From the NCBI RefSeq assembly GCF_001258055.1, contig NZ_CVRM01000009.1:1-44453 (forward strand): a DNA stretch of 44,453 nt, in the 5' to 3' direction. Source of the DNA: Phaeobacter italicus (GTDB lineage Bacteria; Pseudomonadota; Alphaproteobacteria; Rhodobacterales; Rhodobacteraceae). Both the position numbers and the translations under genes were made by a program. This document shows positions 164 to 24,909 of the stretch, piece after piece. Below the pieces are notes generated by a model. It did no database searches. It worked only from the letters and a program-made list of their open reading frames with translations, and was not told the DNA's origin. Numbering within the stretch: the stretch's first letter is position 1; every line of letters starts with the position of its first letter.

Positions 164-212
164 TTTGTATCCATGTGTAGCAAGGGACTGACCTGATACA
201 AACAGCTACAAT
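164..212. promoter_or_regulatory. Two response-regulator-like boxes upstream of the two-component operon
   Basis: On the plus strand GATACA (195-200) and GCTACA (205-210) are spaced exactly 10 bp. On the minus strand GCTACA (181-176) and GATACA (171-166) show the same spacing. Direct hexamer repeats with a 10-11 bp period are typical of OmpR/PhoB-family binding sites. The same GNTACA-N4-GNTACA pattern occurs at 9752-9767 and 22556-22571. Inference: the regulator encoded at 257 binds here and autoregulates. Confidence 0.5.
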
Positions 213-256
213 TCTGCCCCTGAAACATGAAACGACTATGATTTAGGAAGGACGCC

Positions 257-979
257 ATGGGACCACCACCTCATATCCTTATCGTGGATGATCACGCTCA
301 GATTCGCGAAAGCGTCGCGCGCTTTCTGGAGAAGAACGGGATGCGGACCACAGTCGCCAAAGACGCCGTGGAAATGGATGCGAAACTCGTGACCGGCCAT
401 TTCGACCTGCTCGTGCTCGATGTCATGATGCCTGGAGAGGATGGCCTGTCGGTGTGCCGACGCCTTGCGCCCAAAGGTGATCTTCCGATAATTATGCTTA
501 CGGCGCTTGGTGAGGAAACAGATCGTATTGTGGGTCTGGAAATCGGCGCTGATGACTATCTGGCCAAGCCTTTCAATCCGCGAGAACTGCTCGCCCGGAT
601 CAAATCGGTTCTCAGAAGAAGCAACCGCGATGAACCCTTGGCCGGAAGTCTGGCTGGACGGAAAGTCAGTTTTGCGCATTGGATCCTGGATACCGACCGA
701 CAGGTCCTGATCGACGGCTCCGCCACCGAGACGCCATTGACGACATCCGAGTTCAAATTGCTGGCGGTCCTGCTTGAGAGAGCGAGGATGGTGCTCAGTC
801 GTGACCAGTTGCTTGACCTGACCGCCGGTCGGAGCGCCGGTCCCATGGATCGCACAATTGACAATCAAATCAGCCGTCTTCGCCGCAAGATCGAGCCGGA
901 TGTGTTAAGACCAAGCGTCATCAAGACAGTGCGAAATGGTGGGTACTGTCTGGCGGCCGATGTCGAGGATGCGATATGA
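257..979 (+). CDS. OmpR-family response regulator
   Basis: A 240-residue two-component regulator. The receiver domain (about 5-120) has the acidic pair at 11-12, the phospho-acceptor Asp55 in LVLDVMMPG, and Lys104 in AKPF. A winged-helix DNA-binding domain follows (about 135-235), ending in the usual RRKIE and GGYCL stretches. The start is supported by AGGAAGG upstream. It overlaps the sensor kinase gene by a few bases, so the two are co-translated. The signal is unknown; the copper context makes copper or periplasmic stress the leading guess. Its probable sites (GNTACA-N4-GNTACA) lie directly upstream and at several other promoters in this window. Confidence 0.93.
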   Translation: MGPPPHILIVDDHAQIRESVARFLEKNGMRTTVAKDAVEMDAKLVTGHFDLLVLDVMMPGEDGLSVCRRLAPKGDLPIIMLTALGEETDRIVGLEIGADDYLAKPFNPRELLARIKSVLRRSNRDEPLAGSLAGRKVSFAHWILDTDRQVLIDGSATETPLTTSEFKLLAVLLERARMVLSRDQLLDLTAGRSAGPMDRTIDNQISRLRRKIEPDVLRPSVIKTVRNGGYCLAADVEDAI

Positions 980-2445
980 TGCGCCGTGCGTTGGCCTCTC
1001 TGAGCGGACAGTTGATCCTGCTTGTGGTCGCCGCGCTTGTCGTGGCCCAGGCAATCAGCCTTTTCCTCTTCGCAGATGAGCGCAGCCTGGCTATCCGGGC
1101 GGCTTTGGGTTTTGAAGCCGCCGGTCGAGCGGCGAATGTCGCACGGCTGATCGAGGAGGCGCCGCGGGATTTGCATCAATCGATCCTTCGAGCGGCAAAT
1201 TCACCTCTTATCCGTTTTGATCTATCGAGTACCCCGAGTGTCGAACACACCGGCCATTCCGACGGCGGCATCGTAGAGGGACGCATACGCGCCCTGATGG
1301 ATGACAGCTACAGCCGGGATATTCGTGTTGAGTTGCATGAGGTCGAGGGCGAGTTGCGACCCTTGCCCAATCTCTCTGATGAAATGACAGAAATGCATCT
1401 CGCAATGATGCGTGGGGAGTTGACAGCGGTTGAAATGAACTTGTCGATCGCGATCGAGGGATCGCGTTGGCTGAATGTCGGAACGCGGTTCGAGCGTCCG
1501 CCAATCCAATGGCCTTTCTATTCGATGCTGACCTTTGGAATTTCCGCCGGACTGCTCCTGGTGGCGATCTTCTGGTTTGTCATGACGCGCCTGACGCGTC
1601 CTTTGCGGCACCTCTCCAAGGCCGCGGACCATCTTGGCCGGGGCGAGGATGTGGGTGAATTGACCGTCGCGGGGCCGACCGAGGTCAAGGATCTGACCGT
1701 CGCCTTCAACCGCATGCAACGACGGCTGACCCGGTTTGTCAGCGATCGGACACGGATGCTCGCAGCGCTTGGTCACGATTTGCGCTCGCCGTTGACTGCT
1801 ATGCGTGTCCGCGCGGAGCTGGTTGACGAAGAAGAGACGCGGGACAGCCTCATCGCATCGGTCGAAGAGATGCAGAGCATGGTCGAAGCGACGCTCACCT
1901 TTGCACGGGGCCTTACCGGATCCGAAGGTGCCGAAGTGGTCGATCTGCGCAATTTTCTGGACAGCTTGTGCAGCGATATGGCGGCACACTGCACCTTTGC
2001 CCCGAGTGATGATGTTGCCGTGCGGCTTCGACCCAACGCGTTCCGAAGGGCGCTGAGGAACCTGCTTGAGAACGCCGTTCGCTACGGTGGTGCCGCAAAA
2101 GTCAGCTGGGCGACCCACGGTTCGAACCTCGTACTCAACATCGATGACAATGGGCCCGGCATTCCCGTCGACCAGTTGGAAAAGGTCTTCGATCCCTTCT
2201 ATCGCCTCGAGCAATCGAGGTCTCTGGAAACGGGCGGTTATGGGCTTGGGCTCTCGATCGCGAGGACAATCGTCCAATCCCATGGCGGCGATATCCAGCT
2301 GGTCAACCATAACAGCGCGGGTTTGCGCGCTGTTGTCACCATCCCACTGGATGAAAGCGAACTAATCGAAGGAGAAACAGATGAAACTGAAAACGCTCAT
2401 TCCAACGTTGCTGGCCAGCTTGCCCGCCAGCATGGCGCGAGCTGA
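976..2445 (+). CDS. Membrane sensor histidine kinase
   Basis: A 489-residue partner of the preceding regulator. Order: TM1 about 11-33; periplasmic sensor about 35-180 with no recognised fold; TM2 about 184-205; HAMP; dimerisation/phospho-acceptor helix with His267 in LGHDLRSP; HATPase_c with NLLENAVRYGG (N box), DDNGPGIP (G1) and GYGLGLSIA (G2). All catalytic motifs are intact. The C-terminal tail runs about 20 residues past the usual end of the ATPase fold and overlaps the next gene by 65 bp in another frame. The family is EnvZ/CpxA-like; the ligand cannot be read from the sequence. Confidence 0.92.
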   Translation: MMRRALASLSGQLILLVVAALVVAQAISLFLFADERSLAIRAALGFEAAGRAANVARLIEEAPRDLHQSILRAANSPLIRFDLSSTPSVEHTGHSDGGIVEGRIRALMDDSYSRDIRVELHEVEGELRPLPNLSDEMTEMHLAMMRGELTAVEMNLSIAIEGSRWLNVGTRFERPPIQWPFYSMLTFGISAGLLLVAIFWFVMTRLTRPLRHLSKAADHLGRGEDVGELTVAGPTEVKDLTVAFNRMQRRLTRFVSDRTRMLAALGHDLRSPLTAMRVRAELVDEEETRDSLIASVEEMQSMVEATLTFARGLTGSEGAEVVDLRNFLDSLCSDMAAHCTFAPSDDVAVRLRPNAFRRALRNLLENAVRYGGAAKVSWATHGSNLVLNIDDNGPGIPVDQLEKVFDPFYRLEQSRSLETGGYGLGLSIARTIVQSHGGDIQLVNHNSAGLRAVVTIPLDESELIEGETDETENAHSNVAGQLARQHGAS

Positions 2446-2686
2446 TGGTCCAGGCTCCTGGACAGGTCACATGTGGGGCGGAGGCTATGGCTTTATGGGC
2501 GGCTTCATGATGCTCGCCTTCTGGGGCGCCGTGATCGCATTGATCGTGTTTCTGGTGCTCAGGCTGCGGGACAATGGCACCCGTCCCTCGGACTCGGACG
2601 CGCAGGAAGCGCTCCGGCGCCGCTTTGCGAATGGGGAAATCGACGAAGAAGAGTTCCGTCGCCGCAAAGCAACGCTCGACGAATAG
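2381..2686 (+). CDS. Small SHOCT-domain membrane protein
   Basis: A 101-residue protein with a signal peptide ending near ARA (about 21), a Gly/Met-rich stretch (30-44), one membrane helix (about 42-61) and a C-terminal SHOCT motif (about 74-100). The start has a strong GGAGAAAC ribosome site, although it lies inside the 3' end of the kinase gene (65 bp overlap). SHOCT proteins of this size are common beside metal and redox genes in Proteobacteria, but their molecular role is not established. Position suggests it belongs to the two-component operon. The hydrophobic helix plus charged cytoplasmic tail argue that it is a real gene. Confidence 0.75.
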   Translation: MKLKTLIPTLLASLPASMARADGPGSWTGHMWGGGYGFMGGFMMLAFWGAVIALIVFLVLRLRDNGTRPSDSDAQEALRRRFANGEIDEEEFRRRKATLDE

Positions 2687-2751
2687 ACCCCGCCGCGGAC
2701 GCCAAAGCCGTCCGACGCGACGCCCACCGACACTGGATAGGAAAGAACGCC

Positions 2752-4752
2752 ATGGTCCCGGAAATTGGTCACTTCGCACTGGCCCTCGCGCTTGCGCTTG
2801 CGCTTGTTCAAAGCGTTCTGCCGATTGCAGGTGCGTCGCGTGGAAACGCCGTCTGGATGAAATCCGCCCAGGCGACGGCAATAGGACAAGTGCTGTTTGT
2901 GGCCATAGCCTTCGCAGCGCTGATGCAGGCCTTCATCGTCAGCGACTTCACCGTCAGGAACGTCGTCGAGAATTCCCATTCGCTCAAGCCGATGCTCTAC
3001 AAGGTGGCCGGGACCTGGGGCAGCCATGAGGGTTCGCTGCTGCTCTGGATTCTGATCCTCGCGGTGTTCGGCGCGGGCGTCGCCTGGTTCGGATCGAACA
3101 TCCCCGCCGAGACCAAGGCGCGCACCTTGTCGGTGCAGGCGTGGATCAGTGTCGGCTTCCTGTCCTTCCTGCTGCTGACGTCGAACCCCTTCGAGCGGGT
3201 GTTTCCGCCGCCGCTCGACGGCAATGACCTGAACCCGTTGCTTCAGGACATGGGTCTCGCCATGCACCCGCCGCTCTTGTATTTCGGGTATGTCGGCTTC
3301 TCCATCGTGTTTTCCTTCGCCGTTGCGGCTCTTCTGGAAGGGCGCGTCGATCCGGCCTGGGCCAGATGGGTCCGCCCGTGGACATTGGCCGCGTGGGTCA
3401 GCCTTACGGCAGGTATCGCTCTTGGATCGTGGTGGGCCTATTATGAACTGGGCTGGGGCGGCTGGTGGTTCTGGGACCCGGTCGAGAACGTGAGCTTCAT
3501 GCCCTGGCTTCTGGGCACGGCGCTGCTGCATTCCGCCATCGTCACCGAAAAGCGCGACGCGTTCAAAAGCTGGACCATCCTACTTGCCATCCTGACTTTC
3601 TCGCTTTCGCTGCTCGGGACGTTCATCGTCCGGTCGGGCCTGCTTACATCCGTGCATGCCTTCGCCGTCGATCCAGAGCGCGGGCTTTACATTCTGGGTC
3701 TGCTGGCCGTGTCCATCGGTGGGTCGCTGGCGCTCTACGCCTGGCGGGCGCCCGAAATGGAGCCTGGCGGTCTGTTTCGCCCGATCAGCCGCGAAGCCGG
3801 GCTGCTGGTGAACAACCTCATTCTTGCCGCCGCTACCGGAACAGTCCTGTTCGGAACACTTTATCCGCTAATCCTGGAGGCTGTCACCGGGGACAAGATC
3901 TCGGTGGGTCCACCTTTCTTCAATGCCGCATTTATCCCGATGATGCTGGCTTTGGTGGTGTTCATGGGTCTCGGTCCATTCCTGTCGTGGAAACGGGCCG
4001 ATATCGCTGGGTTGCTCGATCGCATTCGGTTCGTAGCCGTGCTGGCTGTCATCGCAACTTTGGCCGCGTGGTATCTTCTGAACGGTGGGCCGATCATGGC
4101 CTATCTTGCCATCCTCGGCGCTGCGTGGCTGCTTTTGGCGACTTTACGGGAATGGGCGCTACGCATCCGTCTGTTCGAGGTTTCCTTTGCTGAGAGCGCG
4201 AGACGGGCGCGCAACCTGCCACGGGCGTCTCACGGCATGACGCTTGCCCATGCCGGCGTTGCCATTTTGATGATGGGGATGATCGGCTCCAGCGCTTGGA
4301 AGAGTGAAGAGATCGTCTTTGCTGCTCCAGGGACCGAAGTTGCGATCGCCGGGTTCGACATCACCTTCGAAGGCGCCGCGCAGGTTCAAGGGCCGAACTA
4401 CATTGCGGATCGCGGCACCCTTGTGGTCCGCAGGGATGACGAATTGGTCACGACACTGTTCCCGGAACGTCGATATTACCCGGTCGCGGAAAGCCAGACG
4501 ACGGAATCGGCGATCCGGTCCACACTTGCGGGCGATCTCTACACGTCGATTGCAACGCCAGCCTCGGATCAAGTGAACAACGCCGGAGCATGGACCCTGC
4601 GGATCCTCTATGAACCGCTCGTCAACCTGATCTGGATTGGCTCGATCCTGCTGGTGATCGGCGGCTGTCTTTCCTTGTCGGATCGCCGCTTGAGGGTCGG
4701 GGCGCCGCGCCGCGCCAAACAGCCTGCCAGCGACGCTGTTCCTGCCGAGTAG
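2752..4752 (+). CDS. ccmF: Cytochrome c maturation protein CcmF (haem lyase subunit)
   Basis: A 666-residue polytopic membrane protein that ligates haem to apocytochrome c in the periplasm with CcmH and CcmI. The WWD haem-handling signature is seen in GGWWFWDPVEN, and the length fits the family. I chose ATG 2752: the protein then opens with the normal CcmF N-terminus, whereas the upstream in-frame extension overlaps the SHOCT gene. It is followed within 8 bp by ccmG. Haem delivery genes ccmABCDE are absent from the window, so this set must rely on host copies or be a duplicate of only the ligation module. Confidence 0.96.
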   Translation: MVPEIGHFALALALALALVQSVLPIAGASRGNAVWMKSAQATAIGQVLFVAIAFAALMQAFIVSDFTVRNVVENSHSLKPMLYKVAGTWGSHEGSLLLWILILAVFGAGVAWFGSNIPAETKARTLSVQAWISVGFLSFLLLTSNPFERVFPPPLDGNDLNPLLQDMGLAMHPPLLYFGYVGFSIVFSFAVAALLEGRVDPAWARWVRPWTLAAWVSLTAGIALGSWWAYYELGWGGWWFWDPVENVSFMPWLLGTALLHSAIVTEKRDAFKSWTILLAILTFSLSLLGTFIVRSGLLTSVHAFAVDPERGLYILGLLAVSIGGSLALYAWRAPEMEPGGLFRPISREAGLLVNNLILAAATGTVLFGTLYPLILEAVTGDKISVGPPFFNAAFIPMMLALVVFMGLGPFLSWKRADIAGLLDRIRFVAVLAVIATLAAWYLLNGGPIMAYLAILGAAWLLLATLREWALRIRLFEVSFAESARRARNLPRASHGMTLAHAGVAILMMGMIGSSAWKSEEIVFAAPGTEVAIAGFDITFEGAAQVQGPNYIADRGTLVVRRDDELVTTLFPERRYYPVAESQTTESAIRSTLAGDLYTSIATPASDQVNNAGAWTLRILYEPLVNLIWIGSILLVIGGCLSLSDRRLRVGAPRRAKQPASDAVPAE

Positions 4753-4760
4753 GAGAGAAG

Positions 4761-5327
4761 ATGAAACGTCTCATCGCCGGGCTGCCGTTTATTGCAGCAG
4801 TCATATTCGGGGGGTTTTTCCTCTGGGGGCTCAATCCCGACCGGGATCCGAACGAAATCCCCTCCGTCCTCATCTCGCAACCGGCCCCGGCGTTCGACCT
4901 CGATCCCGTGCCGGGGTTGGAGACACCCGGCCTGGCCCGAAGCGATCTTGTCGGCAACGAACGACCGGTCGTGGTCAATGTCTTTGCGTCCTGGTGCGTG
5001 CCCTGCCGCGCGGAACATGCCGTGTTGACAAGATTTGTCGAACGAGACGGCATGCGGTTGTTCGGAATAAACTACAAAGACAAACCTGAGGATGCCGTGA
5101 AGTGGCTCAATGACCTCGGCAATCCCTACGAGCGGATCGGGTCCGACCTGTCGGGCCGCACCGGGATCGAATGGGGACTCTCGGGCGTGCCGGAGACCTT
5201 CATCGTCGATGGCGATGGCACCGTTTTGTTTCGCTATGTCGGGCCAGTTGTGGGTCCGGACGCTGTTGAACGTTTCACTACAGCCCTGACGCAAGCAGGC
5301 GCGCTGCCAAACGGAGCAGGATCATGA
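4761..5327 (+). CDS. ccmG: Periplasmic thioredoxin CcmG/DsbE
   Basis: A 188-residue membrane-tethered thioredoxin-fold reductant of apocytochrome c or CcmH. An N-terminal anchor (about 5-25) precedes a TlpA-like fold with active site CVPC at 79-82 inside FASWCVPC, and a cis-Pro loop SGVPETF. It receives electrons from CcdA or DsbD; both kinds of gene occur in this window (31608 and 6974). GGAG precedes the ATG, and the stop overlaps the ccmH start (ATGA), showing translational coupling. Confidence 0.95.
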   Translation: MKRLIAGLPFIAAVIFGGFFLWGLNPDRDPNEIPSVLISQPAPAFDLDPVPGLETPGLARSDLVGNERPVVVNVFASWCVPCRAEHAVLTRFVERDGMRLFGINYKDKPEDAVKWLNDLGNPYERIGSDLSGRTGIEWGLSGVPETFIVDGDGTVLFRYVGPVVGPDAVERFTTALTQAGALPNGAGS

Positions 5328-5797
5328 GACAGCTGATTTTCGCATTGTGCATCGGGGCGCTTCCCTTTGCTGCCAACGCCGTCGAACCGGACGAAATGCT
5401 GACTGACCCGCTATTGGAACAACGTGCACGGGAGATCTCCAAGGATCTGCGATGCGTCGTCTGTCAGAATCAGGACATCGACAGCTCCAACGCGGGTGTG
5501 GCCCGGGACCTGCGCCTTCTTGTCCGCGAGCGACTGGTCGCAGGAGACACTGACACCCAGGTGGTCGAGTACATTCGGGCGCGGTACGGCGATTACGTGC
5601 TGCTCAAACCGCCTCTGGAGCCTGCGACCTACGCGCTTTGGTTTGCGCCGATCGCTTTCGTTCTGATCGGGGTTTTCGTTGGTGGCGGGGTACTGATGAG
5701 TCGGCGAAAGCAAGAGGCTTTTGAAGATTTGGGCGCGGAGGATGAGAACACCGTGTCCGAGATTCTCAGACAAAACGAAGCGGGGGATGCGTCATGA
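5324..5797 (+). CDS. ccmH: Cytochrome c maturation protein CcmH
   Basis: A 157-residue haem-lyase component that reduces or presents the CXXCH of apocytochrome c. The signal peptide ends near ANA (19). The family motif LRCVVCQ supplies Cys44 and Cys47. A single membrane helix (about 105-125) is followed by a short Arg/Lys-rich cytoplasmic tail. This is the short (CcmH/CcmL) form, with the TPR part encoded separately by the next gene. It overlaps both ccmG and ccmI by 4 bp (ATGA). Confidence 0.95.
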   Translation: MRQLIFALCIGALPFAANAVEPDEMLTDPLLEQRAREISKDLRCVVCQNQDIDSSNAGVARDLRLLVRERLVAGDTDTQVVEYIRARYGDYVLLKPPLEPATYALWFAPIAFVLIGVFVGGGVLMSRRKQEAFEDLGAEDENTVSEILRQNEAGDAS

Positions 5798-6945
5798 TCT
5801 GGGGTATTTTCGGTCTTCTGACGCTGGTCGCGATCGGAATAGTCCTCTACCCGCTGCTGCTGTCCAAATCGAACACTCTCACCAGAGGAGATGCGGTACC
5901 GGCCATCCTCGCCGATCAGATGCAGGAAATCGAACGAGACATGGACCGCGGTTTGATTTCTGAACAAGAAGCTCAAGCAGCCAGACTCGAGATCAAGAAA
6001 CGGATCCTCGCGACGACCCGCAATTTGGAAGCAAAAGCCGGATCGTCCCGTAGTGGTGGCAGAGGCACTCTTGTTGTCGCGGCGGTCCTCGCGCCGGTTA
6101 TTGCCGCGGGCTACTATCTGACAATGGGATCGCCGGAGGTGCCTTCAATGGCCTTCGCTGCCCGTGCAGAGGAGCGCGCACAGACTGATGAAGTGACGGC
6201 GCTGGCAATACAACTTCGCGAAAGGCTTATATCCGATCCGACCGGCGGCCCCAGCGAAGGGTGGATGCTGTTGGGCCAGACCTATCAGCGCATGGGCAGA
6301 ACAGTTGATGCTGTCGAAGCATTCGAAGTTGTCGCCAAACGGGAGGATGCCACCTCCGCGACATTCTCCATGCTGGCGGAGGCTGTCGCGGTTGCCAATG
6401 ATGGCGTTGTTATTCCACGGGCGAAATTGGCCATTGATCGCGCTTTGGAACTTGACCCATCCAATCCTGCGGCAACCTATTTCGAGTCTCTCTACCATCT
6501 TCAAAAAGAAGAGACGCGTAAGGCCTACGATCTGCTCGTTTCCCGGCTGAACCAGGAAAAGACGTTCGTGCCCTGGATGGAAACATACGTTTTGCAGATC
6601 AACCGGATTGCAGCGGCAGCTGACCTCCCGGTCGTCAATCTACCCAGCGGGCCGACATCCCCACCCGGCCCGAGTGCGGCAGATGTCGCGGCGGCGTCGG
6701 AGATGAATGACGCGGACCGCGCGGAGTTCATCCGATCGATGGTCTCGCGGCTGGCCGAGCGTCTTGAGGATGAACCGGACGATCTGGATGGTTGGATGCG
6801 GCTGGCAAACGCCTATACGGTCCTTGAGGAGCCCGATCGCGCCGTTGAGGCCTACCGCAAGGCTGAAGCGCTGTTGGAGCAGCAGCCCGCCAGTGATCCT
6901 CGGCGTGCGGCGGTCCGTGCCGCGCTTGAGCGGCTCGGCGGCTGA
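5794..6945 (+). CDS. ccmI: Cytochrome c maturation TPR protein CcmI
   Basis: A 383-residue apocytochrome c chaperone. Two membrane helices (about 1-22 and 90-112) flank a cytoplasmic segment. TPR-like repeats fill the periplasmic part, visible as GWMLLGQTYQRMGR near 150 and GWMRLANAYTVLEEPDRAVEAY near the C-terminus (repeats quoted in part). The architecture matches the separate CcmI of alphaproteobacteria. It closes the ccmFGHI operon and converges on the minus-strand scsB gene with a 28-bp gap. Confidence 0.93.
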   Translation: MIWGIFGLLTLVAIGIVLYPLLLSKSNTLTRGDAVPAILADQMQEIERDMDRGLISEQEAQAARLEIKKRILATTRNLEAKAGSSRSGGRGTLVVAAVLAPVIAAGYYLTMGSPEVPSMAFAARAEERAQTDEVTALAIQLRERLISDPTGGPSEGWMLLGQTYQRMGRTVDAVEAFEVVAKREDATSATFSMLAEAVAVANDGVVIPRAKLAIDRALELDPSNPAATYFESLYHLQKEETRKAYDLLVSRLNQEKTFVPWMETYVLQINRIAAAADLPVVNLPSGPTSPPGPSAADVAAASEMNDADRAEFIRSMVSRLAERLEDEPDDLDGWMRLANAYTVLEEPDRAVEAYRKAEALLEQQPASDPRRAAVRAALERLGG

Positions 6946-6973
6946 CTGCTGGTCGGTGTCCCGCCCGGGCAGG

Positions 6974-9103: not shown

Positions 9104-9162
9104 GATACCTGCTTCCTTCCCTTATTTTTACCGCAGATTTCGCCAAGACGGCGGAGGTCGCC

Positions 9163-9360
9163 TCAACGGAAACCTACGGCAAAACCCTGACGACCATCCG
9201 CGCAGTCAACTCGCGCGACGCCAGTCGCAGAAGTTGAAAGATACCGACACCCATCCGGCAGAAGGTCTGACGCTTGCTTCGTGGACACGATAGCGCCGCG
9301 ATCCGGGCAGTCTTCTAGACTTCCTGCACATCCCCCAAGCAAGAAACCCGACAACAGCAA
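9163..9360 (-). CDS. Putative small lipoprotein, TTG start or frameshifted
   Basis: A 65-residue frame opening with a hydrophobic stretch and lipobox LGGC (Cys11), then a short polar tail with three more Cys. The only in-frame start is TTG at 9360. The upstream gene's stop overlaps an ATG (TGATG, near 9390) whose frame stops after seven codons; a one-base shift would join it to the lipoprotein signal sequence. It may therefore be a small lipoprotein with a weak start or a frameshifted one. It sits between the 100-residue membrane protein gene and scsB, same strand. Confidence 0.42.
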   Translation of the reverse strand: MLLSGFLLGGCAGSLEDCPDRGAIVSTKQASDLLPDGCRYLSTSATGVARVDCADGRQGFAVGFR

Positions 9361-9388: not shown

Positions 9389-9691
9389 TCACGGCCTGTC
9401 GCGGACCACGACTGGAATCGCGGAGGTCATGGGCTCGGTCGTTTCCTCGATAGTATCCTTTGCCTTGTCGGAATGGCACGATTTCCCCATGAATTTGTGC
9501 ATCGCAAGATGCGCCCCCACGCACAGCAGGAGCGGGGCGAAAGCCGCTGCATTGCCCCACATGCCCGCCAATGTGCCGCCGGCAAGAAAAAATCCCGCAA
9601 CGGGCAGCAGCATGACGGCGCAACACGCCATCATTCCGTAATGCATGAGCCTGTCCGTGATCGGCTTTTTTCTGTGGTTCTGGTGGTCCAT
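9389..9691 (-). CDS. Small His-rich two-helix membrane protein (DUF2933-like)
   Basis: A 100-residue protein opening MDHQNH, with two hydrophobic helices (about 17-38 and 44-63), His at the helix ends, and a C-terminal polar tail containing KSCHSDK. Small DUF2933-type proteins with this look are common beside copper ATPases; the match is by eye and the function is unknown. GAGGG precedes the ATG. A CueR-like promoter (9720-9750) reads directly into it, so copper induction is likely. It heads a minus-strand run with the small lipoprotein and scsB. Confidence 0.7.
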   Translation of the reverse strand: MDHQNHRKKPITDRLMHYGMMACCAVMLLPVAGFFLAGGTLAGMWGNAAAFAPLLLCVGAHLAMHKFMGKSCHSDKAKDTIEETTEPMTSAIPVVVRDRP

Positions 9692-9719: not shown

Positions 9720-9750
9720 CATTTGCGGCCCTCCAGCAGGGTAAGGTCAA
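9720..9750 (-). promoter_or_regulatory. CueR-type promoter/operator for the 9691 minus operon
   Basis: On the minus strand -35 TTGACC (9750-9745) is followed by a 19-bp spacer holding TTACCC...GGAGGG and a -10-like CAAATG (9725-9720). The over-long 19-bp spacer with an internal dyad is the hallmark of promoters untwisted by MerR/CueR. The CueR candidate is encoded at 18362. Confidence 0.6.
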
Positions 9751-9751
9751 G

Positions 9752-9767
9752 GATACAAATGGATACA
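9752..9767 (+). promoter_or_regulatory. Response-regulator-like box upstream of the first L,D-transpeptidase
   Basis: Two GATACA hexamers at 9752-9757 and 9762-9767 are spaced 10 bp, 81 bp before the ATG at 9848. The box abuts the CueR-like -35 element that reads the other way. Confidence 0.5.
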
Positions 9768-9847
9768 CTTCTCGCGGCCTTGTCAGGTTGCCAGATGCCG
9801 GGTCTCGCGTAAAAGACGTGTGACAAAACCGAGGCTGGGAGTGTGTC

Positions 9848-10408
9848 ATGACGTCTTTGCCGAATAACAAGATTAACCGACGACGCCTATTTGGTTTGGC
9901 GGCGGTTGCTTTGGCTGCCCCAAGCGTGGTTCGGGCCGAAGTCATTCGCCGCAATATCTCTTCTTTCCGAGTTCACGAGTGGCAAGACCATTTCGATACG
10001 CTTGGAAAGGGTATCATTATCTCGGACACGGAAACACGGGCTCTGCAGCATTGGACAGCAGATGGGTCAATGCGGATCTATCCGACATCCGTTCCTCTGA
10101 CCGATGAACTCACAAAACGCGGTTATACCGAAGTCGTGGAAAAGCGCAAAAACCCCAACTGGGCGCCGACGCCCTCCATGCGGGAACGCAATCCAGAATG
10201 GCCGGCACGTGTCGAGGGAGGCGATCCTGCCAACCCTCTGGGTACCCGCGCATTGTATCTGTCCTGGCAATACTACCGTATCCACGGAACACAGGACACG
10301 CGAAAAATCGGCCGTCGGTCATCAAATGGCTGCATCGGTTTGTTCAACGAACAGGTTGAAGAGCTTTACGAGCGGGTGCCCGTCGGCACTCAAGTCAAAC
10401 TCATCTGA
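9848..10408 (+). CDS. Tat-exported L,D-transpeptidase (YkuD family), copy 1
   Basis: A 186-residue enzyme predicted to form 3-3 peptidoglycan cross-links or attach proteins to the wall. A Tat-type signal (NRRRLFG then a hydrophobic stretch ending VRA near 29) is followed by the catalytic domain with HGTQ and the Cys motif SSNGCIGLFN. The usual Arg two residues after the catalytic Cys is Gly here, unlike the other three copies in this window. It heads the plus-strand run of cytochromes and multicopper oxidase, and a response-regulator-like box lies upstream. Confidence 0.88.
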   Translation: MTSLPNNKINRRRLFGLAAVALAAPSVVRAEVIRRNISSFRVHEWQDHFDTLGKGIIISDTETRALQHWTADGSMRIYPTSVPLTDELTKRGYTEVVEKRKNPNWAPTPSMRERNPEWPARVEGGDPANPLGTRALYLSWQYYRIHGTQDTRKIGRRSSNGCIGLFNEQVEELYERVPVGTQVKLI

Positions 10409-15481: not shown

Positions 15482-15485
15482 TGCA

Positions 15486-15808: not shown

Positions 15809-15838
15809 CCACTTCGAATGGAAAAACAGGTGACACAT

Positions 15839-18349: not shown

Positions 18350-18361
18350 CGGAGGTCCGAC

Positions 18362-18760
18362 ATGAACATCGGAGACGTTGCCCGACAATCGGGTGTGCCC
18401 GCCAAGACGATCCGCTACTACGAGGACATCGGTCTGATCCGCCCGAACCGTAGCGAGAACGGCTATCGCGCGTTCACCGAGAACCATGTTCACAAGCTGG
18501 CGTTTCTGGGTCGCGCACGGGCCTTGGGGTTCACCATCGAAGATTGCAGGACGCTCCTGTCGCTCTACGAGGATGAAAACCGCGAAAGCATGCAAGTGAA
18601 GGCGGTTGCGGAAGACCATCTGCGCCAGATCGAGGAAAAGATCGCGAAACTGCAATCCATGCGCGCGACGCTCGCCGAACTGGTGGAAAAATGTGCCGGG
18701 GATCACCGGCCCGACTGCCCCATCATCGAGGATCTGTCGCCGGAGCGGTTGGCCAAGTGA
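18362..18760 (+). CDS. cueR: CueR-type MerR-family copper regulator
   Basis: A 132-residue MerR-family activator. The N-terminal winged helix (MNIGDVARQSGVPAKT) is followed by a dimerisation helix and the C-terminal metal loop with Cys111 and Cys119, spaced eight as in CueR Cu(I) sensors. It lies directly downstream of copA, apparently co-transcribed (GGAGGT before ATG), so it should amplify with copper. Predicted targets in the window are the promoters at 15719-15749, 15778-15808, 27074-27104 and 9720-9750. Confidence 0.93.
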   Translation: MNIGDVARQSGVPAKTIRYYEDIGLIRPNRSENGYRAFTENHVHKLAFLGRARALGFTIEDCRTLLSLYEDENRESMQVKAVAEDHLRQIEEKIAKLQSMRATLAELVEKCAGDHRPDCPIIEDLSPERLAK

Positions 18761-18781
18761 CAGGCAAGAAGGGGCTGTACC

Positions 18782-19546
18782 TCAGAACCAGATCGCGCGG
18801 ACCGGCATCCAGATACCCATGAAGATCATCATCAGGTTTTCCGTCAGCGAAATGAACCCCAGCGGGACGGAACTGTCACCGCCGACGCAGGCGCATTTCA
18901 GCTCTCTCTTGTCGATATAAACAGCCTTGAACACGCTGACAGCGCCTACCGTGCCGATAAACAGGGCGACAGGCGCCGAGAGCCACAGCAGCGCGCCGGC
19001 AGTCATCAGGACACCTGCCAACGCTTCGCCGAACGGGTAGACCTTGCCGTATCGCACCCATTTGCGCGCCAGCAGATCGTAGTTGAGGAACATCGTCGAA
19101 AACCCTTCGACATCCTGCAATTTCTGGATCGCGAGAATGGTCATGGACAGCGAAATGAACCATTCGAACCCCCGCAAGGTAAGGACCGACCCGTACTGGT
19201 GCCAAGACAGGCCCAATGCCAACAGCGCGGCAACGGAAAAGATCGCGATGACCGGCTGGTAGGTCGTGTCGCTTTGCTCTTCCTCGGGTGGGTCAATGTC
19301 GAAAAACACCCTGAGATCATCGTAACCGCCGATCCGTTCGTCCCCGATGAAAGTCTGCGGCGTCGTCTCGACCCCGTGCTTCTCCATGAAAGCATCGGTG
19401 TCTTCACGGGTGTCAAGCGGATGGTCTTCCACCTCGAAGCCTTGCCGCTCCAGCAGGTCTTTCGATTTCAGACCGTAGGGGCAGACATGGCCCGGCATGA
19501 CCATGCGATAAAGCTGCGCGGATTTACTGTCTGTGTCGCGGGGCAT
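18782..19546 (-). CDS. Glutaredoxin-MauE fusion membrane protein
   Basis: A 254-residue fusion. Residues about 10-85 form a glutaredoxin-like domain with CPYG (from Cys22), a TPQTFIGDERIGG cis-Pro/binding stretch, and no second active-site Cys, so a monothiol or electron-relay role is likely. Residues about 95-254 form a MauE/DoxX-like four-helix membrane domain with KCACVGG near the end. MauE-type proteins support disulfide formation or maturation of periplasmic enzymes. Inference: a membrane thiol relay linking cytoplasmic glutathione to the periplasm. It follows the DUF305 gene on the same strand (12-bp gap). Confidence 0.8.
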   Translation of the reverse strand: MPRDTDSKSAQLYRMVMPGHVCPYGLKSKDLLERQGFEVEDHPLDTREDTDAFMEKHGVETTPQTFIGDERIGGYDDLRVFFDIDPPEEEQSDTTYQPVIAIFSVAALLALGLSWHQYGSVLTLRGFEWFISLSMTILAIQKLQDVEGFSTMFLNYDLLARKWVRYGKVYPFGEALAGVLMTAGALLWLSAPVALFIGTVGAVSVFKAVYIDKRELKCACVGGDSSVPLGFISLTENLMMIFMGIWMPVRAIWF

Positions 19547-19558
19547 GTCCTTTCCTCC

Positions 19559-20395
19559 TTATCCGCTGCACGTAAGTTGACCACGGAACCCGGCTTCGTA
19601 GTCGGTTCCCGCGCTGACGATCAGATCGGTCAGGTCACCGTTCGTCTCTGCGATCTCGGCCGACAGCGGGCCTTCAGAAAATGCATTTTCGCCCTGCGCA
19701 TTCAGGCGCACCAGATCACCGCTGATCTTCATTGCGGCGGCAGACCCTTCGCCGGTTTCACCAGTCACCAGTACAGCCGGACTGTCCGAGGTGTAAGCAA
19801 AGCGGCAATTTCCGCCATTCGGGAACACCGCAGCGATTTCGTCTTCCGTCAGAAACTCAGGATCGACCTTCGACACGACCTCCGTTTGAAGCGCCTGTTG
19901 CGCATCCACAACCTGCGCCGGCGTTTCGCTTCGCGTGGCCGATGCTTCGCCGTTTGCTCCAATGTCAGCAATAAGGTAGCGCATTTCGGCGATTTCCTTG
20001 TCCTGCGCATAGATAATGTCGTCTGCGAGCCCCCGGACGCGCGGGTCGGTGATCTCGGCACGAGTCGACGTCATGATGGCGATCGAGTGGTGCGGGATCA
20101 TGGCGCGCATGTAGGACCTGTCCTGCACCGTGAATTGCCCGCGAACCAGCCAGAGGCTCGCCGCGAAAAGGACTATTGCGCCAACGAAAATCGCGATGTT
20201 GGCTTTGGTGTTCTGATACATGGACAACATGTACGCCAACATGATCACGGCCATGGTCGCCCCCATCAGGATGGCCATGTAAAGGCGTGTCTCCGAAAAG
20301 AAGATATGGCCCCAAAGATAGGTGTTCAGGTACATCAGAACGAACATGACCACGGTCGATGTTCCGATCATCATAAAGAATCGTGAGTAGTGCAT
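19559..20395 (-). CDS. Membrane-anchored DUF305 protein with extra C-terminal domain
   Basis: A 278-residue protein. Three or four N-terminal membrane helices (about 8-95) lead to a DUF305 core with IPHHSIAIM and AQDKEIAEMRYL, the His/Met pattern typical of this family near copper genes. Residues about 175-278 form an additional periplasmic-looking domain with one Cys pair (NCRF and LTCSG). DUF305 proteins are often linked to copper handling but the biochemistry is unproven. AGGAGGTGACTGGAA precedes the ATG. It is the first gene of the pair with the glutaredoxin-MauE fusion. Confidence 0.82.
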   Translation of the reverse strand: MHYSRFFMMIGTSTVVMFVLMYLNTYLWGHIFFSETRLYMAILMGATMAVIMLAYMLSMYQNTKANIAIFVGAIVLFAASLWLVRGQFTVQDRSYMRAMIPHHSIAIMTSTRAEITDPRVRGLADDIIYAQDKEIAEMRYLIADIGANGEASATRSETPAQVVDAQQALQTEVVSKVDPEFLTEDEIAAVFPNGGNCRFAYTSDSPAVLVTGETGEGSAAAMKISGDLVRLNAQGENAFSEGPLSAEIAETNGDLTDLIVSAGTDYEAGFRGQLTCSG

Positions 20396-20574
20396 TTCCA
20401 GTCACCTCCTTGCAGTTCTCTGTAAAACAACAACATTCCAGCGCTGGAGAGTTCCAAAAGCACGAATTTTCGTAGTTTCAAGGCAACAAAGGCGCGTCGT
20501 TTGCCCCGGTTCACGGCTTCTTTTCTTTGCCCCTGACGCGCACTGAATTTTCATGGGTCCGAGGAGATCGCGCC

Positions 20575-21156
20575 ATGCAGAATTTCACGAGACGAGAATT
20601 GATTTGTGCCGGAGCGATGGGTTGCTTTCTGCCCACAACTGCCTGGGCCCACAAAGTCAAATTGCCCGAACGGTTCGAACCACAATTGGTAAACACCCGT
20701 CGTGGTGACTGGGTTAAAGGCGATGTCCACGTCGTTCCCGACGATTTTTTCCTTTATTTCATGCTCGAGGACGGGATGGCGATCCGCTACGGGGTCGGGG
20801 TAGGGCGCAAAGGTTTGTACGAACCCGGAGAGTTCACGGTAGCGCGCAAGGCCAAATGGCCATGGTGGCGGCCAACGAACGCCATGATCCGGCGCGAGCC
20901 ACGCAAATACGCAAAGTACAAGGATGGACTGAAAGGCGGGCCAAACAACCCGCTCGGGGCCCGCGCGCTCTATCTCTACGATGCCGAGGGACGCGATACC
21001 TATCTTCGCATTCATGGAACGAACGCCCCGGAGACAATTGGGTCTGCCGTGTCGAATGGATGCGCGCGGTTGACGAATGAACATGTGAAGAATCTGTACG
21101 AACGCGTTGAAATCGGCGCCCGCGTCTTCCTGTATCCCAAAGTGACAACGGCGTGA
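20575..21156 (+). CDS. Tat-exported L,D-transpeptidase (YkuD family), copy 2
   Basis: A 193-residue enzyme. The Tat-like signal (TRRELICAGAMG, cleavage near AWA) starts at ATG 20575, preceded by GAGGAG; the longer upstream frame lacks a ribosome site. The catalytic domain has RIHGTN and the Cys motif SNGCARLTNEHV, with the Arg after Cys present. Pre-domain residues (DGMAIRYGVGVG, YEPGEFTVARK) are shared with copies 3 and 4. Predicted role: 3-3 cross-linking or anchoring of proteins to peptidoglycan. The second multicopper oxidase follows. Confidence 0.9.
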   Translation: MQNFTRRELICAGAMGCFLPTTAWAHKVKLPERFEPQLVNTRRGDWVKGDVHVVPDDFFLYFMLEDGMAIRYGVGVGRKGLYEPGEFTVARKAKWPWWRPTNAMIRREPRKYAKYKDGLKGGPNNPLGARALYLYDAEGRDTYLRIHGTNAPETIGSAVSNGCARLTNEHVKNLYERVEIGARVFLYPKVTTA

Positions 21157-21248
21157 GGAGTGTTCTGTCGCCTTGAAGTTCCTCTTCCGGAAATGGCACA
21201 AGTGCGGCAGTTGGCGAAAGCCAGTCTATCATTCATGAGGTGACGGAA

Positions 21249-22544
21249 TTGTCTTTGAGCCGGAGGTCTTTCCTTGGCGGGATGACCGTTGCGCTGGCTG
21301 GTACCCGCTTGCCAGCAGCGACACACGAGTTGATCCTCGCGCCCCAATCGATCAAGGCGCACCTTGCTGGGTACGACGTGTCGATGTTGGGCTTCAACGG
21401 TGGTCTGCCGGGCCCAGAAGTCAGAATGCGACAAGGACAAACCGCCCGCATTACCCTCGATAACCGATTGGAGGAGGGCGCTCTCGTTCACTGGCATGGG
21501 TTGCGGGTTCCAAATCGGATGGATGGTGTCAACGTCCTCACTCAGGATGTGGTCATTCCGGGCGACTCGTATCGTTATCAATTCGGCGTCCCGGATGCCG
21601 GCACGTATTGGTATCACTCGCATTACCTGTCTTACGATCAGGTCAGCCGCGGTCTTTTCGGCGCCTTCATCGTCGAGGAGCAAAATGCGCCGGCTGTCGA
21701 CCATGACATCGTTGTTCAGTTCTTCGATGTCTTGCTGGATCAGTCCGGGCAGTACGACGAAGCGTTCAACCCGGCCCATTTCGCAACCGAGGGCCGTATC
21801 GGCAATACGGTCACGGCACTTGTTTTCAATGGAACCGGCAAGACTGTGAAACGAGGCGACCGTCTGCGACTGCGTCTCATAAATCCCTCTATCGACAGGG
21901 TGTACCGTGTCGGCCTGGATGGTTTGATAGGCAAGATCGTTGCACTGGATGGCATGCCTCTGGCGCATCCTCGGACGCTCGAACCGATCCTTCTCGCTCC
22001 GGGGCAAAGATGCGATGTGATTGGTGATGCGACCGGGCCTATTAGATTCGACGACAGCTTTGGAGAACAGACGTTGAGCCTTGGCGAAATCGCTGTTTCC
22101 GGTTCCCGTGAGCCCGCGAAAGCGCCCATCACCGCATTGCCCGCCAACCGAATGCCCGCCCCGAAAGACCCCGGCCAAACCGCGGAGCTGGTGCTCCAGG
22201 GAGGTGCGGGAAGCGCGTCCCACAACGGCACAGGGACATGGGCGCTCAATGACGTATCCGGCCTGCCTCGAAGGCCTTTCCTATCCGCCGCGCAGGGGAC
22301 GACCGCGCGCATTTCGATCCGCAACGAAACCGGGTTCCCACACGTCATGCACCTGCATGGCCACCATTTCTGGGAACTCGATGCGGCGGGTGAAGCCGGT
22401 CCATACCGGGACTCGACCTATCTGGATACCGGCGAGACGCGGGATATTCTCGTCGTCCTGGACAATCCGGGATCGTGGATGCTGCATTGCCACATGTTGA
22501 GCCACCAGGCCGACGGTATGGCAACGTGGATCAGAGTCGGCTGA
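21249..22544 (+). CDS. Tat-exported multicopper oxidase, copy 2
   Basis: A 431-residue oxidase from TTG 21249; GTG 21240 would add three residues. AGGTGA at 21238-21243 is correctly spaced only for the TTG, which gives MSLSRRSFLGG, a Tat signal. Copper motifs are complete: HWHGLRV (about 81-87), YWYHSH (about 120-125), HVMHLHGHHF, and HCHMLSH with the axial Met in ADGM at the end. It is a paralogue of the oxidase at 12837, and shorter. It probably oxidises Cu(I) or another periplasmic reductant. Confidence 0.9.
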   Translation: MSLSRRSFLGGMTVALAGTRLPAATHELILAPQSIKAHLAGYDVSMLGFNGGLPGPEVRMRQGQTARITLDNRLEEGALVHWHGLRVPNRMDGVNVLTQDVVIPGDSYRYQFGVPDAGTYWYHSHYLSYDQVSRGLFGAFIVEEQNAPAVDHDIVVQFFDVLLDQSGQYDEAFNPAHFATEGRIGNTVTALVFNGTGKTVKRGDRLRLRLINPSIDRVYRVGLDGLIGKIVALDGMPLAHPRTLEPILLAPGQRCDVIGDATGPIRFDDSFGEQTLSLGEIAVSGSREPAKAPITALPANRMPAPKDPGQTAELVLQGGAGSASHNGTGTWALNDVSGLPRRPFLSAAQGTTARISIRNETGFPHVMHLHGHHFWELDAAGEAGPYRDSTYLDTGETRDILVVLDNPGSWMLHCHMLSHQADGMATWIRVG

Positions 22545-22555
22545 GGGTCGCGACG

Positions 22556-22571
22556 GATACATACCGTTACA
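22556..22571 (+). promoter_or_regulatory. Response-regulator-like box upstream of dsbB
   Basis: GATACA (22556-22561) and GTTACA (22566-22571) are spaced 10 bp. TGATAA at 22582-22587 could be the -10, which places the box over the -35 region as expected for OmpR-family activation. The box lies 87 bp before the dsbB start. Confidence 0.5.
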
Positions 22572-22657
22572 AATCTCTGAATGATAACAGCCCTTCTGCC
22601 GTTTACGTAACCTGACAAGCGAGAAACAGGTCCATCGATTGCCAACGGGAGCGTTCA

Positions 22658-23170
22658 TTGACCCTGACACCAAAATCTCTCGGCATGACTGCGGCGGCAG
22701 GATCAGCCGCCTTGCTGTTAGGGGCCTTCGTTTTCCAGGCTCTTGGCTACGCGCCTTGCGCAATGTGCATCTGGCAACGCTACCCACACGCAATCGCCAT
22801 TGGAATGGGCGCTCTGTTGCTCTTTGCTCTGCCGATTTTGCCAATCCTGATAATCGGTGCCCTGTCGGAACTCAGCACATCCGCGTTGGGAGTGTTTCAT
22901 ACCGGTGTCGAGCGCGGCTGGTGGGAGGGACCGACTTCTTGCACGGGATCCGGCCTCGATGTTTCCCAAATGTCGGTATCGGAATTGCTGCCCTCTGCCA
23001 GTTCAAATGCGTCCAATCTTGTTCTGTGCAGTGAGGTTGTCTGGGAATTTCTGACGTTGTCCATGGCGAGTTGGAACGCGATCCTAAGCGGTGTCCTTGC
23101 TTGCCTCTGGTTGGTCGCGATCGCAAGACATCAAAAGGTTCGGTGGCATGGGGTCGCGGACGTTTCTTGA
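22658..23170 (+). CDS. dsbB: DsbB-family disulfide bond formation protein, copy 1
   Basis: A 170-residue four-helix membrane oxidase that re-oxidises DsbA with quinone. First periplasmic Cys pair CAMC (34 and 37) inside YAPCAMCIWQRYPH; second pair Cys95 and Cys124 in the longer loop. The start is TTG with CGGGAG upstream. A response-regulator-like box precedes it, and an L,D-transpeptidase gene follows 42 bp downstream. A second DsbB is at 43727. Confidence 0.9.
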   Translation: MTLTPKSLGMTAAAGSAALLLGAFVFQALGYAPCAMCIWQRYPHAIAIGMGALLLFALPILPILIIGALSELSTSALGVFHTGVERGWWEGPTSCTGSGLDVSQMSVSELLPSASSNASNLVLCSEVVWEFLTLSMASWNAILSGVLACLWLVAIARHQKVRWHGVADVS

Positions 23171-23212
23171 ATCGTCCCGCATTCATCGAAAACAAACAAA
23201 GGGCTTCGCTTC

Positions 23213-23878
23213 ATGGTTACAAGACGACACTTCCTTGCACTTTCCGGCTCGCTGTTTTCAGCTTCTCTGAGTTCGCCAGCATTCGCTAAGACCTGGCCGT
23301 CAACAGCCGAAAAAGCAGCTTGGGATGCGCAGATCACGCCCGCCAACTATGACCCGGCAACAACCAACCCATGGGGGCTGCATCCCAGGCTGCTGCCGCA
23401 ACGCGTTTTGGCGAATGACGGTTTGCGCCCGGGTGACATTCACGTCGATGCGATCGCGCGCTATCTGTACCATATCGAGGAAGGTGGCACCGCGATGCGA
23501 TACGGGGTGGCGATTGCCAAGGGCGATCTCTATGAACCCGGCACCTATACGATCCGCCGAAAGGTCGAATGGCCGCACTGGACGCCAACGCAGTCAATGA
23601 TCGAACGCGATCCGGAGGCTTACGAGCGGTTTGCCGACGGTATGGAGCCCGGCCCCAACAATGCCTTGGGCAGCAGGGCTTTGTATCTATTCGTCGGAGA
23701 TCGGGATACGTACCTTCGAATTCACGGAACGCCGAGCCCTCGCAGCATTGGCGGCCGGGCCAGTTCGGGATGCGTGCGCATGGTGATGGCCCACATCAAT
23801 GATCTCTATCCGAATGTCGCTGTCGGATCGACGGCGTTCCTTTACTCGGCCGAAGACAGCGTTACCGCTCGAAGCTAA
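23213..23878 (+). CDS. Tat-exported L,D-transpeptidase (YkuD family), copy 3
   Basis: A 221-residue enzyme. Tat signal TRRHFLALSG with cleavage near AFA (24). Catalytic motif RIHGTP ... RASSGCVRMVMAHI: His, Ser, Cys and Arg are in place, while the residue before Gly is Ser rather than His or Asn. It is very similar along its whole length to copy 4 at 32650 (for example identical DRDTYLRIHGTP and AHINDLYPNV). Downstream of dsbB on the same strand, so it may share the box at 22556-22571. Confidence 0.92.
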   Translation: MVTRRHFLALSGSLFSASLSSPAFAKTWPSTAEKAAWDAQITPANYDPATTNPWGLHPRLLPQRVLANDGLRPGDIHVDAIARYLYHIEEGGTAMRYGVAIAKGDLYEPGTYTIRRKVEWPHWTPTQSMIERDPEAYERFADGMEPGPNNALGSRALYLFVGDRDTYLRIHGTPSPRSIGGRASSGCVRMVMAHINDLYPNVAVGSTAFLYSAEDSVTARS

Positions 23879-23954
23879 CCTATTGCATCTTTGGCTCACA
23901 CGCCGAGGACTGCGTCGTGCAGGGACATCTTCCAATGAATTGTTGGACGAACAC

Positions 23955-24584
23955 TCACGGCTGTGTCGCAAGTGAACTTTCGAACTGTGCGATCGCTACG
24001 GATTTGTCGTCCTCATCGTTCTCGAACAGCTTTGTGGTTCGCACGCCCGGCAACTTGCCAAAATCCGCCATCAGGCGCTTTGGAAAAAATGTGCGTCCGA
24101 TGGATTCAAATCCTGGTAATTGTCTGAGTACCGCGGAGGTACTGGCACTACAAAAACCGGAAGCGGCTGGGCCGCTGGCAATTGCAAGGCGCAAAGCCTG
24201 CTCCGCGACTTCGGGAGACACATCGATCTCTTGTATGACGACATGGTAGGTCTCGCGAGCATGAGCCCGCGCATAAAAATCGGCCACTTGTGGAGTAATG
24301 CCATAAAGCACATCTCCCCGTTCCGGTACAGCGCTCAGCCGGACCGTTCCTGCCGGATCGAAGATAACACGCTGCGACCCATTAATCATGACGCTGCTAT
24401 GCGCACCCGCCCCGGACCTGTTGTTGATCATGGTGTACAACGTCAGCGCGGCCGGTCCATCGTGACGGTAGGATGCGCTACTGATGACTTCGGCTGAAGC
24501 ATCCGGGCGCATGTCGTTTCCTGCGCCGCACCCCGCCAAAATTACCAAGGTTAGAACTGAGAAAATGCGGTTCAAAAAGAGCAC
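23955..24584 (-). CDS. Lipoprotein of unknown family with conserved His/Cys pattern
   Basis: A 209-residue protein from GTG 24584, which has AGGAGG 7 nt upstream; the open frame further upstream lacks coding character. The signal ends in lipobox LAGC. The mature part contains AHSSVMING, IFDPAG and a later FCSASTS. A His in a strand-like segment plus a Cys before a helix resembles permuted NlpC/P60-like hydrolases, but this is speculative; I do not recognise the family. It diverges from the Met-rich EF-hand gene. Confidence 0.62.
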   Translation of the reverse strand: MLFLNRIFSVLTLVILAGCGAGNDMRPDASAEVISSASYRHDGPAALTLYTMINNRSGAGAHSSVMINGSQRVIFDPAGTVRLSAVPERGDVLYGITPQVADFYARAHARETYHVVIQEIDVSPEVAEQALRLAIASGPAASGFCSASTSAVLRQLPGFESIGRTFFPKRLMADFGKLPGVRTTKLFENDEDDKSVAIAQFESSLATQP

Positions 24585-24909
24585 CCTGCAGCCTCCTGCC
24601 ATGGGTTGAATAATTGAATTTTCGGGATATTCAGGTCCTCTACCACTCTCGACACCAACTCTTCCGGATTTCACGTCCACCGAAACACGGGTTCGGTGTC
24701 GGTTGGTACGCGACTCCTCGACAGGTTTTTCTCTGGATATCGCAAGTCTCAGATTAAGAGGAGCGTTCGCCCCGAATTGATTTGTCGCAATTTGTAACAG
24801 ACCCCGCCTTTGTGACCTCGCGATACAAAACACCGGCTCGCGTGGCATTCCGCATCTGCAGGTGCATCCCATATGGTGGCTATCGTAACACTGACACGAG
24901 GTGATCGAC
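24585..24909. promoter_or_regulatory. Divergent intergenic region with a near-match regulator box
   Basis: No gene is seen in these 325 bp. On the minus strand GTTACA (24798-24793) and GCGACA (24788-24783) are spaced 10 bp, one base off the GNTACA-N4-GNTACA pattern. A lone GATACA lies at 24822. A 7-bp stem with a 7-nt loop (CACCGAA/TTCGGTG, 24678-24698) lies nearer the lipoprotein start. Confidence 0.4.

Follow-up and report, generated by a model that had tools for sequence, protein, structure and literature searches.

The 44,453-nucleotide contig of Phaeobacter italicus analysed here (NZ_CVRM01000009.1; the whole stretch is referred to as the window) carries a copper island in which a tandem repeat, GNTACA-N4-GNTACA (the box), recurs in front of several operons, among them that of a two-component system. 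Sequence evidence makes it very probable that the window's response regulator docks at this box, which keeps its position ahead of the regulator gene in the related copper islands examined. We consider it highly probable that, in its wider form GNKACA-N4-GNKACA, it is the head-to-tail operator of the OmpR-like regulator at 257-979, which would be fed by a sensor kinase bearing a Met/His cluster and would activate a copper and periplasm-repair regulon. Operator and regulon are real and functional-looking, and what deserves attention is the regulon itself together with the wide reach of the code.

Occurrence and conservation of the box

Four exact boxes and a single copy with one mismatch, the only such copy in the window, lie at the positions given by a preliminary description of this DNA (Table 1), and the gene layout of annotated relatives places all five between genes, as that description had held. 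In 100 dinucleotide shuffles of the window, exact matches average 0.01 with a maximum of 1, and the earlier chance figure of 0.08 was therefore of the right order and, if anything, generous; matches with 0-1 mismatch average 0.43 per shuffle, and none of the 100 shuffles attains five. A position weight matrix (PWM) was built from 84 distinct sites, the five window sites among them, after removal of sites labelled as lying in RR (3) or in lMCO2 (1) and of unassigned sites (2). The lowest training score is 9.2, the five window sites score 29.6-35.6, the next best place in the window scores 10.5 (24812, +), and no place in four stretches of reversed sequence scores above 9.

The boxes at 166 and 195 are divergently paired, 29 bp separating their starts. 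The leftward member is directed at a gene outside the window, beyond the contig end, and the leftward neighbour in plasmids of P. gallaeciensis and D. shibae is a rhodanese gene. That gene is replaced by an ISKra4 transposase in P. inhibens P88 (L102, 18428-19789), which shares 97% identity with window positions 1-6000, so that the leftward box may no longer have a target to control. The same 29-bp geometry is seen at the one-mismatch site, where the strong member (24783) is directed at the lipoprotein gene and a weak partner (24812) at the gene for the Met-rich EF-hand protein. Given its high PWM score and the location of the 24812 place exactly where the divergent partner would be missing, the near-match is most plausibly a genuine site with a GCGACA half-site. 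One relative, G002, has all five window sites.

Public genomes were searched with the kinase; of the 117 candidates obtained, the best 80 (L006-L085), together with the window and a second island of the same genome (L001), make up 82 loci; L042 is without a regulator, leaving 81 to be counted. In 81/81 loci a box with 0-1 mismatch lies on the coding strand 58-64 bp before the regulator start, and the mismatches are changes of T to G at the third base of a half-site. Because such GNGACA half-sites recur, the predicted consensus was widened to GNKACA-N4-GNKACA. A second, divergent box starts 29 or 30 bp away in 66 of the 81, the remaining 15 having a single box. The regulators are 60 to 100% identical; their promoters comprise 39 distinct sequences, and 43 distinct ones are counted when the upstream stretches are compared. 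Within the 82 loci (1.66 Mb), GNTACA pairs occur 151 times at N4 and 0-1 times at each other spacing from 0 to 15, and GNKACA-N4-GNKACA gives 234 matches, whereas 60 permuted half-site patterns peak at 40; the shuffles, the spacing and the permuted half-sites together reject a chance origin.

The preliminary description had proposed scanning the whole genome and its relatives, and had taken equal abundance inside genes as a sign against a regulon. The genome (4.05 Mb, 37 contigs) holds eight exact boxes, four in the window (contig C9), three within 4.1 kb on C14 and one on C31, the last of which, inside a glutamine-synthetase reading frame, is the only one of the eight within a gene; the reversed pattern gives three exact matches. 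C14 is a second copper island (L001, G000:C14:4000-23900) with a regulator and a kinase of its own (61% and 60% identity with the window pair), L,D-transpeptidases, multicopper oxidases, CcmF and a DsbA/ScsC-like protein, and cross-talk between the two systems is likely. The C14 paralogue has the same recognition helix as the window regulator and the same box in its own promoter. Sites with one mismatch to the GNTACA pair lie at C14:28871 beside a DsbD-like gene (PWM 16.5), at C27:4305 about 280 bp before a cusF-like gene (PWM 14.7), and at C14:7326 before CcmF, where the site fits GNKACA. At one mismatch the reversed control exceeds the box (87 + 82 against 38 + 26 matches, counting the exact ones), and a single mismatch by itself therefore carries no evidential weight. 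The small contig C27 (L104, 3738-4320), with its cusF-like gene and upstream one-mismatch box, perhaps supplies the left side that an island lacks. Counts in 61 relatives (an exact match in 31, the reversed control often higher) are uninformative per genome; at least two exact boxes within 45 kb were seen, by eye, only in G000 and G002.

The sensor kinase and the proposed signal

In the mechanism that we propose, periplasmic copper (or silver) would be sensed by the kinase encoded at 976-2445 through an invariant Met/His cluster, and the kinase would phosphorylate the regulator. Two regulator DNA-binding domains would then occupy the same face of the helix, one on each half-site 10 bp apart, and the dimer on the tandem box upstream of the promoter would recruit RNA polymerase. 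Predicted targets are the regulator's own operon including the cytochrome c maturation set, the run of L,D-transpeptidase 1, cytochrome and multicopper oxidase genes, dsbB with L,D-transpeptidase 3, and the gene pair for the lipoprotein and the Met-rich EF-hand protein. Copper inhibits L,D-transpeptidases and cytochrome c assembly, and the outcome would be that periplasmic functions damaged by copper are replaced or repaired.

The cluster, H94 and MxxMHxxMM (residue numbers in Table 1), is a candidate Cu(I)/Ag(I) site in the sensor domain as judged from sequence. Of 97 kinases, 61 are distinct and near full length; in the 55 of these with at least 56% identity both elements are invariant. By eye, one of the other six (L090) has MxxMHxxMM without H94 and five are without the cluster. 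In a six-frame look at a class-wide sample (L117-L145, described below) it is encoded only by L117 besides the window paralogue L110, and the Cu(I)/Ag(I) input would accordingly appear to have been acquired once. It is possible, though we think it rather improbable, that the kinase instead senses another cue, such as silver, envelope disulfide stress or damaged cytochromes, with copper acting indirectly. The operon content points as much to disulfide and cytochrome repair as to copper export, and a 102-kb plasmid of D. shibae with copper genes and a two-component system, perhaps a different one from that of the window, is described in the available text of its report as giving slightly more silver tolerance with copper tolerance unchanged (PMC9426580). 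Against a signal other than copper stand the invariance of both elements in all 55 copper-island kinases and the absence of MxxMHxxMM from every reading frame of the 28 loci L118-L145.

Distribution of the box among promoters

Gene by gene, a box on either strand was counted within 250 bp upstream; genes with less than 200 bp of upstream sequence were omitted from this count. In the tables of labelled frames, those below 40 bits were left aside, and, as some tabled frames start too early, sites falling in lDUF2933 (10) and in lCcmF (8) were taken as upstream. The box precedes the DUF2933 gene in 39/39 cases, L,D-transpeptidase 1 in 40/45 and the C14-type transpeptidase b (LDTb) in 10/11, the first two largely sharing one site. 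Genes lying mostly inside operons are without it: window-type CcmF (0/66), DsbE (0/69), CcmH (0/70), CcmI (0/71) and DsbD (0/51), with the kinase at 1/83.

Several results weigh against the proposed activation of a copper regulon. Many of the loci are near-identical plasmid copies, and 81/81 stands for far fewer than 81 independent events. The box is missing before L,D-transpeptidase 1 in five of 45 cases, and is found before only 26 of 63 divergent rhodanese genes and six of 58 cyt10104 genes. None of its own was found before the C14-type transpeptidase a (0/16), LDT2 (0/1) or the homologues of LDT3 (0/11), nor before copA (0/12), the multicopper oxidases MCO1 (0/5) and MCO2 (0/1) or window-type scsC (0/6), so that its coverage of the copper genes is incomplete; some of these may lie downstream within boxed operons, and the control of copA looks like CueR's. 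Regulators beyond the copper clade do not always have the box: six of 15 from relatives (47-57% identity) show no site within one mismatch, and one of 29 class-wide promoters (L132) fails the PWM comparison (both samples are described below). Finally, a by-eye assignment of -35 and -10 elements yielded no firm ones, so that activation as opposed to repression is judged from position only.

The absence of firm -35 and -10 assignments, and the contrast between a regulator promoter boxed in every locus and other targets with misses, favour a regulator that represses, or that controls only itself while the other genes are mainly under CueR or constitutive. We regard this as unlikely, as good boxes also precede LDTb and some cytochrome genes, one ends 87 bp before dsbB, and in 38 loci boxes of six different sequences end 79-122 bp before L,D-transpeptidase 1.

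Identity of the regulator reading the box

The window regulator has a PF00072 domain (104.4 bits) and a PF00486 (Trans_reg_C) domain (74 bits), both above cut-off, which places it in the OmpR/PhoB-type superfamily, and the tandem head-to-tail half-sites about 10 bp apart fit the same type. Its best model is OmpR and that of the kinase EnvZ, and the nearest solved structures to its DNA-binding domain are 6zwt, followed by those of OmpR (6lxl, 2jpb and 1opc). Across the copper clade the recognition helix, DRTIDNQISRLRRK, hardly varies (DR[TKR][IV]DNQ[IV]SRLRRK), and it is close to that of OmpR (ERSIDVQISRLRR). Named families fall short of their cut-offs: for the regulator, OmpR proper (NF007005) scores 253.6 bits (cut-off 331), RstA (NF007977) 157.2 (330) and CopR/CzcR/SilR (TIGR01387) 128.6 (279.2), and for the kinase, EnvZ proper scores 190.8 (415) and cztS_silS_copS 122.5 (292.55).

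These data bear out what the preliminary description had proposed, namely a period of 10 bp fitting an OmpR-family protein, now seen in the strict N4 spacing; a site unlike that of CusR/CopR, in line with the low CopR-family score; and a regulon of the window's own regulator. The last is supported by the box in all 81 regulator promoters, the strict spacing, the restriction within the genome and the C14 paralogue, and further by six other regulators of the same genome (32-44% identical, E-values up to 1e-25), none of which has a box upstream.

CueR is encoded in the island as well, and a CueR-type promoter abuts one box. The word AARGTCAAG adjoins the box in 50/50 loci on the DUF2933 side, and the minus strand there reads CTTGACCTTACCCTGCTGGAGGG, a CueR-type layout that starts at the base next to the box, with its TTGACC one base away from the box. 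A long spacer parts the two halves of the dyads that CueR recognises, and the reading was made by eye from the layout of the TTGACC dyad. Since the box abuts the CueR-type -35 side, cytoplasmic and periplasmic signals may meet at this place, and the region between DUF2933 and L,D-transpeptidase 1 is a likely meeting point of the two copper signals. That the box belongs to CueR, or to a chromosomal OmpR-family protein, and that the window regulator is merely one of its targets, we nevertheless hold to be very unlikely: the stretch upstream of copA has the CueR-type dyad layout and no box, the six other regulator matches in the genome (E-values up to 1e-25) lack one, and the box travels with the window-type regulator across families. 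Two islands with related operons in one genome might suggest that the repeats are leftovers of duplicated promoter DNA or products of chance, an explanation of negligible probability given that the flanks vary between promoters around a constant box, the spacing is exact, and diverged relatives keep the box and change its N positions.

A further word, CTTGTCAGGTT, follows two of the boxes in opposite orientations, at 9779-9789 (+) and 22609-22619 (-), and might serve either as a -35 element (TTGTCA) or as a second site. In the 82 loci CTTGTCAGGTTG occurs 34 times, never more than 120 bp from a box and mostly in the same L,D-transpeptidase 1 promoter, and the genome has four copies of CTTGTCAGGTT (the reversed pattern: one), which is near chance. 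In view of the repeated promoter, the reversed copy before dsbB and this count, we make no claim for a second regulatory word.

Breadth of the code beyond the copper islands

Outside the copper islands, a second sample of 15 regulators of relatives includes nine with a site within one mismatch. In a class-wide sample of 386 genomes, 89 had a match, and the best 29 loci beside the window were taken (L128 here is the same regulator as L098 of the second sample; L141/L145 and L127/L131 are near-copies, and L126, L128 and L134 are close). Five of their promoters have exact boxes, 21 have one within one mismatch, and in 28 a place matches the PWM better than in at least 95 of 100 mononucleotide shuffles. 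When the period of 10 is given and the word is not, the commonest repeated word is G..ACA (18 of the 29), and the N4 spacing gives 19 matches against at most three at any other. In a tree made by a quick method, with near-copies of at least 95% beyond three excluded, 40 regulators paired with Met/His kinases lie on one side of a branch with weak support (31), and a fork of 41 rows, those 40 plus L118, has a support of 98.

The box also accompanies the regulator into genomes of other families, and in several marine bacteria the plasmids that bear the system have been typed as conjugative. By its sequence pattern, the box appears to follow one clade of OmpR-like regulators, with exceptions, and it is probably older than the copper islands. 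We offer only tentatively, as an account that may well prove wrong, that a Met/His copper sensor took over, on a single occasion, an old class-wide OmpR-like code (GNKACA-N4-GNKACA, with autoregulation), and that conjugative plasmids then disseminated it. On these it would command a ‘bypass’ regulon made up of spare copies of the periplasmic targets of copper, i.e. cytochrome c maturation, disulfide enzymes and L,D-transpeptidases. As recipients can hold other regulators reading the same code, arrival of such a plasmid may rewire the regulons of host and island in both directions.

The box provides a sharp, transferable predicted binding code for a copper two-component system, and one predicted switch would govern L,D-transpeptidases, cytochrome c maturation and disulfide enzymes alike. 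Copper defence by spare copies of its targets thereby becomes directly testable, and where a similar code precedes relatives elsewhere in the Alphaproteobacteria, autoregulated regulators are predicted.

Features of the window

The boxes and the genes tied to them are collected in Table 1. In annotated relatives an open reading frame with a SHOCT domain, at 2381-2686 in the window, overlaps the end of the kinase gene.

Table 1. Predicted operator sites and associated genes in the window
Feature	Position	Strand	Basis or remark
Regulator box, leftward member of divergent pair	166..181	-	Exact; PWM 35.6, training site
Regulator box, rightward member of divergent pair, before response-regulator operon	195..210	+	Exact; PWM 32.1, training site
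OmpR-family response regulator, presumed owner of the box	257..979	+	Pfam; DNA-binding domain compared with solved structures
EnvZ-like sensor kinase	976..2445	+	H94, M137, M140, H141, M144 and M145 in presumed periplasmic part
ccmF, dsbE, ccmH, ccmI (cytochrome c maturation), downstream in regulator operon	2752..6945	+	Pfam; ccmF start is the P88 annotation shifted onto window coordinates
DUF2933 gene, divergent from the 9752 box	9389..9691	-	Annotated relatives
-35 side of CueR-type promoter of DUF2933 gene, adjoining the box	9743..9751	-	AAGGTCAAG on +, CTTGACCTT on -
Regulator box between DUF2933 gene (-) and L,D-transpeptidase 1 (+)	9752..9767	+	Exact; PWM 33.5, training site
L,D-transpeptidase 1, opening the cytochrome/multicopper oxidase run	9848..10408	+	Pfam
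cueR, second copper regulator of the island	18362..18760	+	TIGR02044, 169.3 bits (above cut-off of 147.4)
Regulator box before dsbB and L,D-transpeptidase 3	22556..22571	+	Exact; PWM 32.4, training site; same site in G002
dsbB	22658..23170	+	
L,D-transpeptidase 3	23213..23878	+	
Predicted lipoprotein	24045..24602	-	LAGC lipobox by eye; stop codon beyond the stretch translated
Regulator box with GCGACA half-site, towards lipoprotein gene	24783..24798	-	One mismatch; PWM 29.6, training site; G002 differs in spacer only
Degenerate partner box towards Met-rich EF-hand gene	24812..24827	+	PWM 10.5, weak, outside training set
Met-rich protein with DxDGDG (EF-hand-like) stretches	24910..25371	+	3' end beyond the stretch translated

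Comparison with known systems

Titles, abstract openings and passages of the open-licence literature yielded no paper on this box or copper system, and a copper regulon under this box was not found there in print; the published systems below are given as those excerpts describe them. Two copper-responsive systems are akin in theme. DsbRS of Pseudomonas aeruginosa responds to copper and induces disulfide-bond genes (PMC10141476), and is likened here by description only, on its copper response and disulfide genes. UzcRS of Caulobacter (U/Zn/Cu), likewise from an alphaproteobacterium, is a copper-responsive two-component system with envelope targets (PMC8224329, PMC8963506); its regulator is described as reading CATTAC-N6-TTAA (PMC8963506), a site different from GNKACA-N4-GNKACA, and UzcR is set apart by this site. 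CenR of Rhodobacter sphaeroides, which governs cell division and envelope genes through TGA-N8-TGA half-sites (PMC9275681), shares an OmpR-family box, the 10-bp period and an alphaproteobacterial host, but the different site as described speaks against identity.

By its letters, and so far as the published excerpts go, the half-site resembles those of OmpR, RisA and, above all, the RstA box. For RisA of Bordetella, chromatin immunoprecipitation sequencing (ChIP-seq) gave the half-site GTTACA (PMC11019879), which is presented as a single 6-bp word, with no fixed tandem mentioned in the passages available, and the regulon is different. The RstA box, TACATNTNGTTACA, is a tandem TACA with 10-bp spacing (PMC4117788), and one C14 site, GATACATATCGTTACA, fits this box as published letter for letter; the window-type box differs in having G two bases before TAC in both half-sites and in tolerating GNGACA. 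Boxes computed for OmpR in Acidithiobacillus caldus include GTTACAACTTGTTACATAAG (PMC9861516). OmpR/EnvZ is matched in the best-scoring models, the structures of the DNA-binding domain and the half-sites spaced by 10 bp, whereas the scores stay below the cut-offs, the window helix reads DNQ where OmpR has DVQ, and the island targets are copper and periplasm genes. The window regulator and its box belong to the ordinary OmpR-type mechanism class, the regulator staying below the cut-offs of the named families scored.

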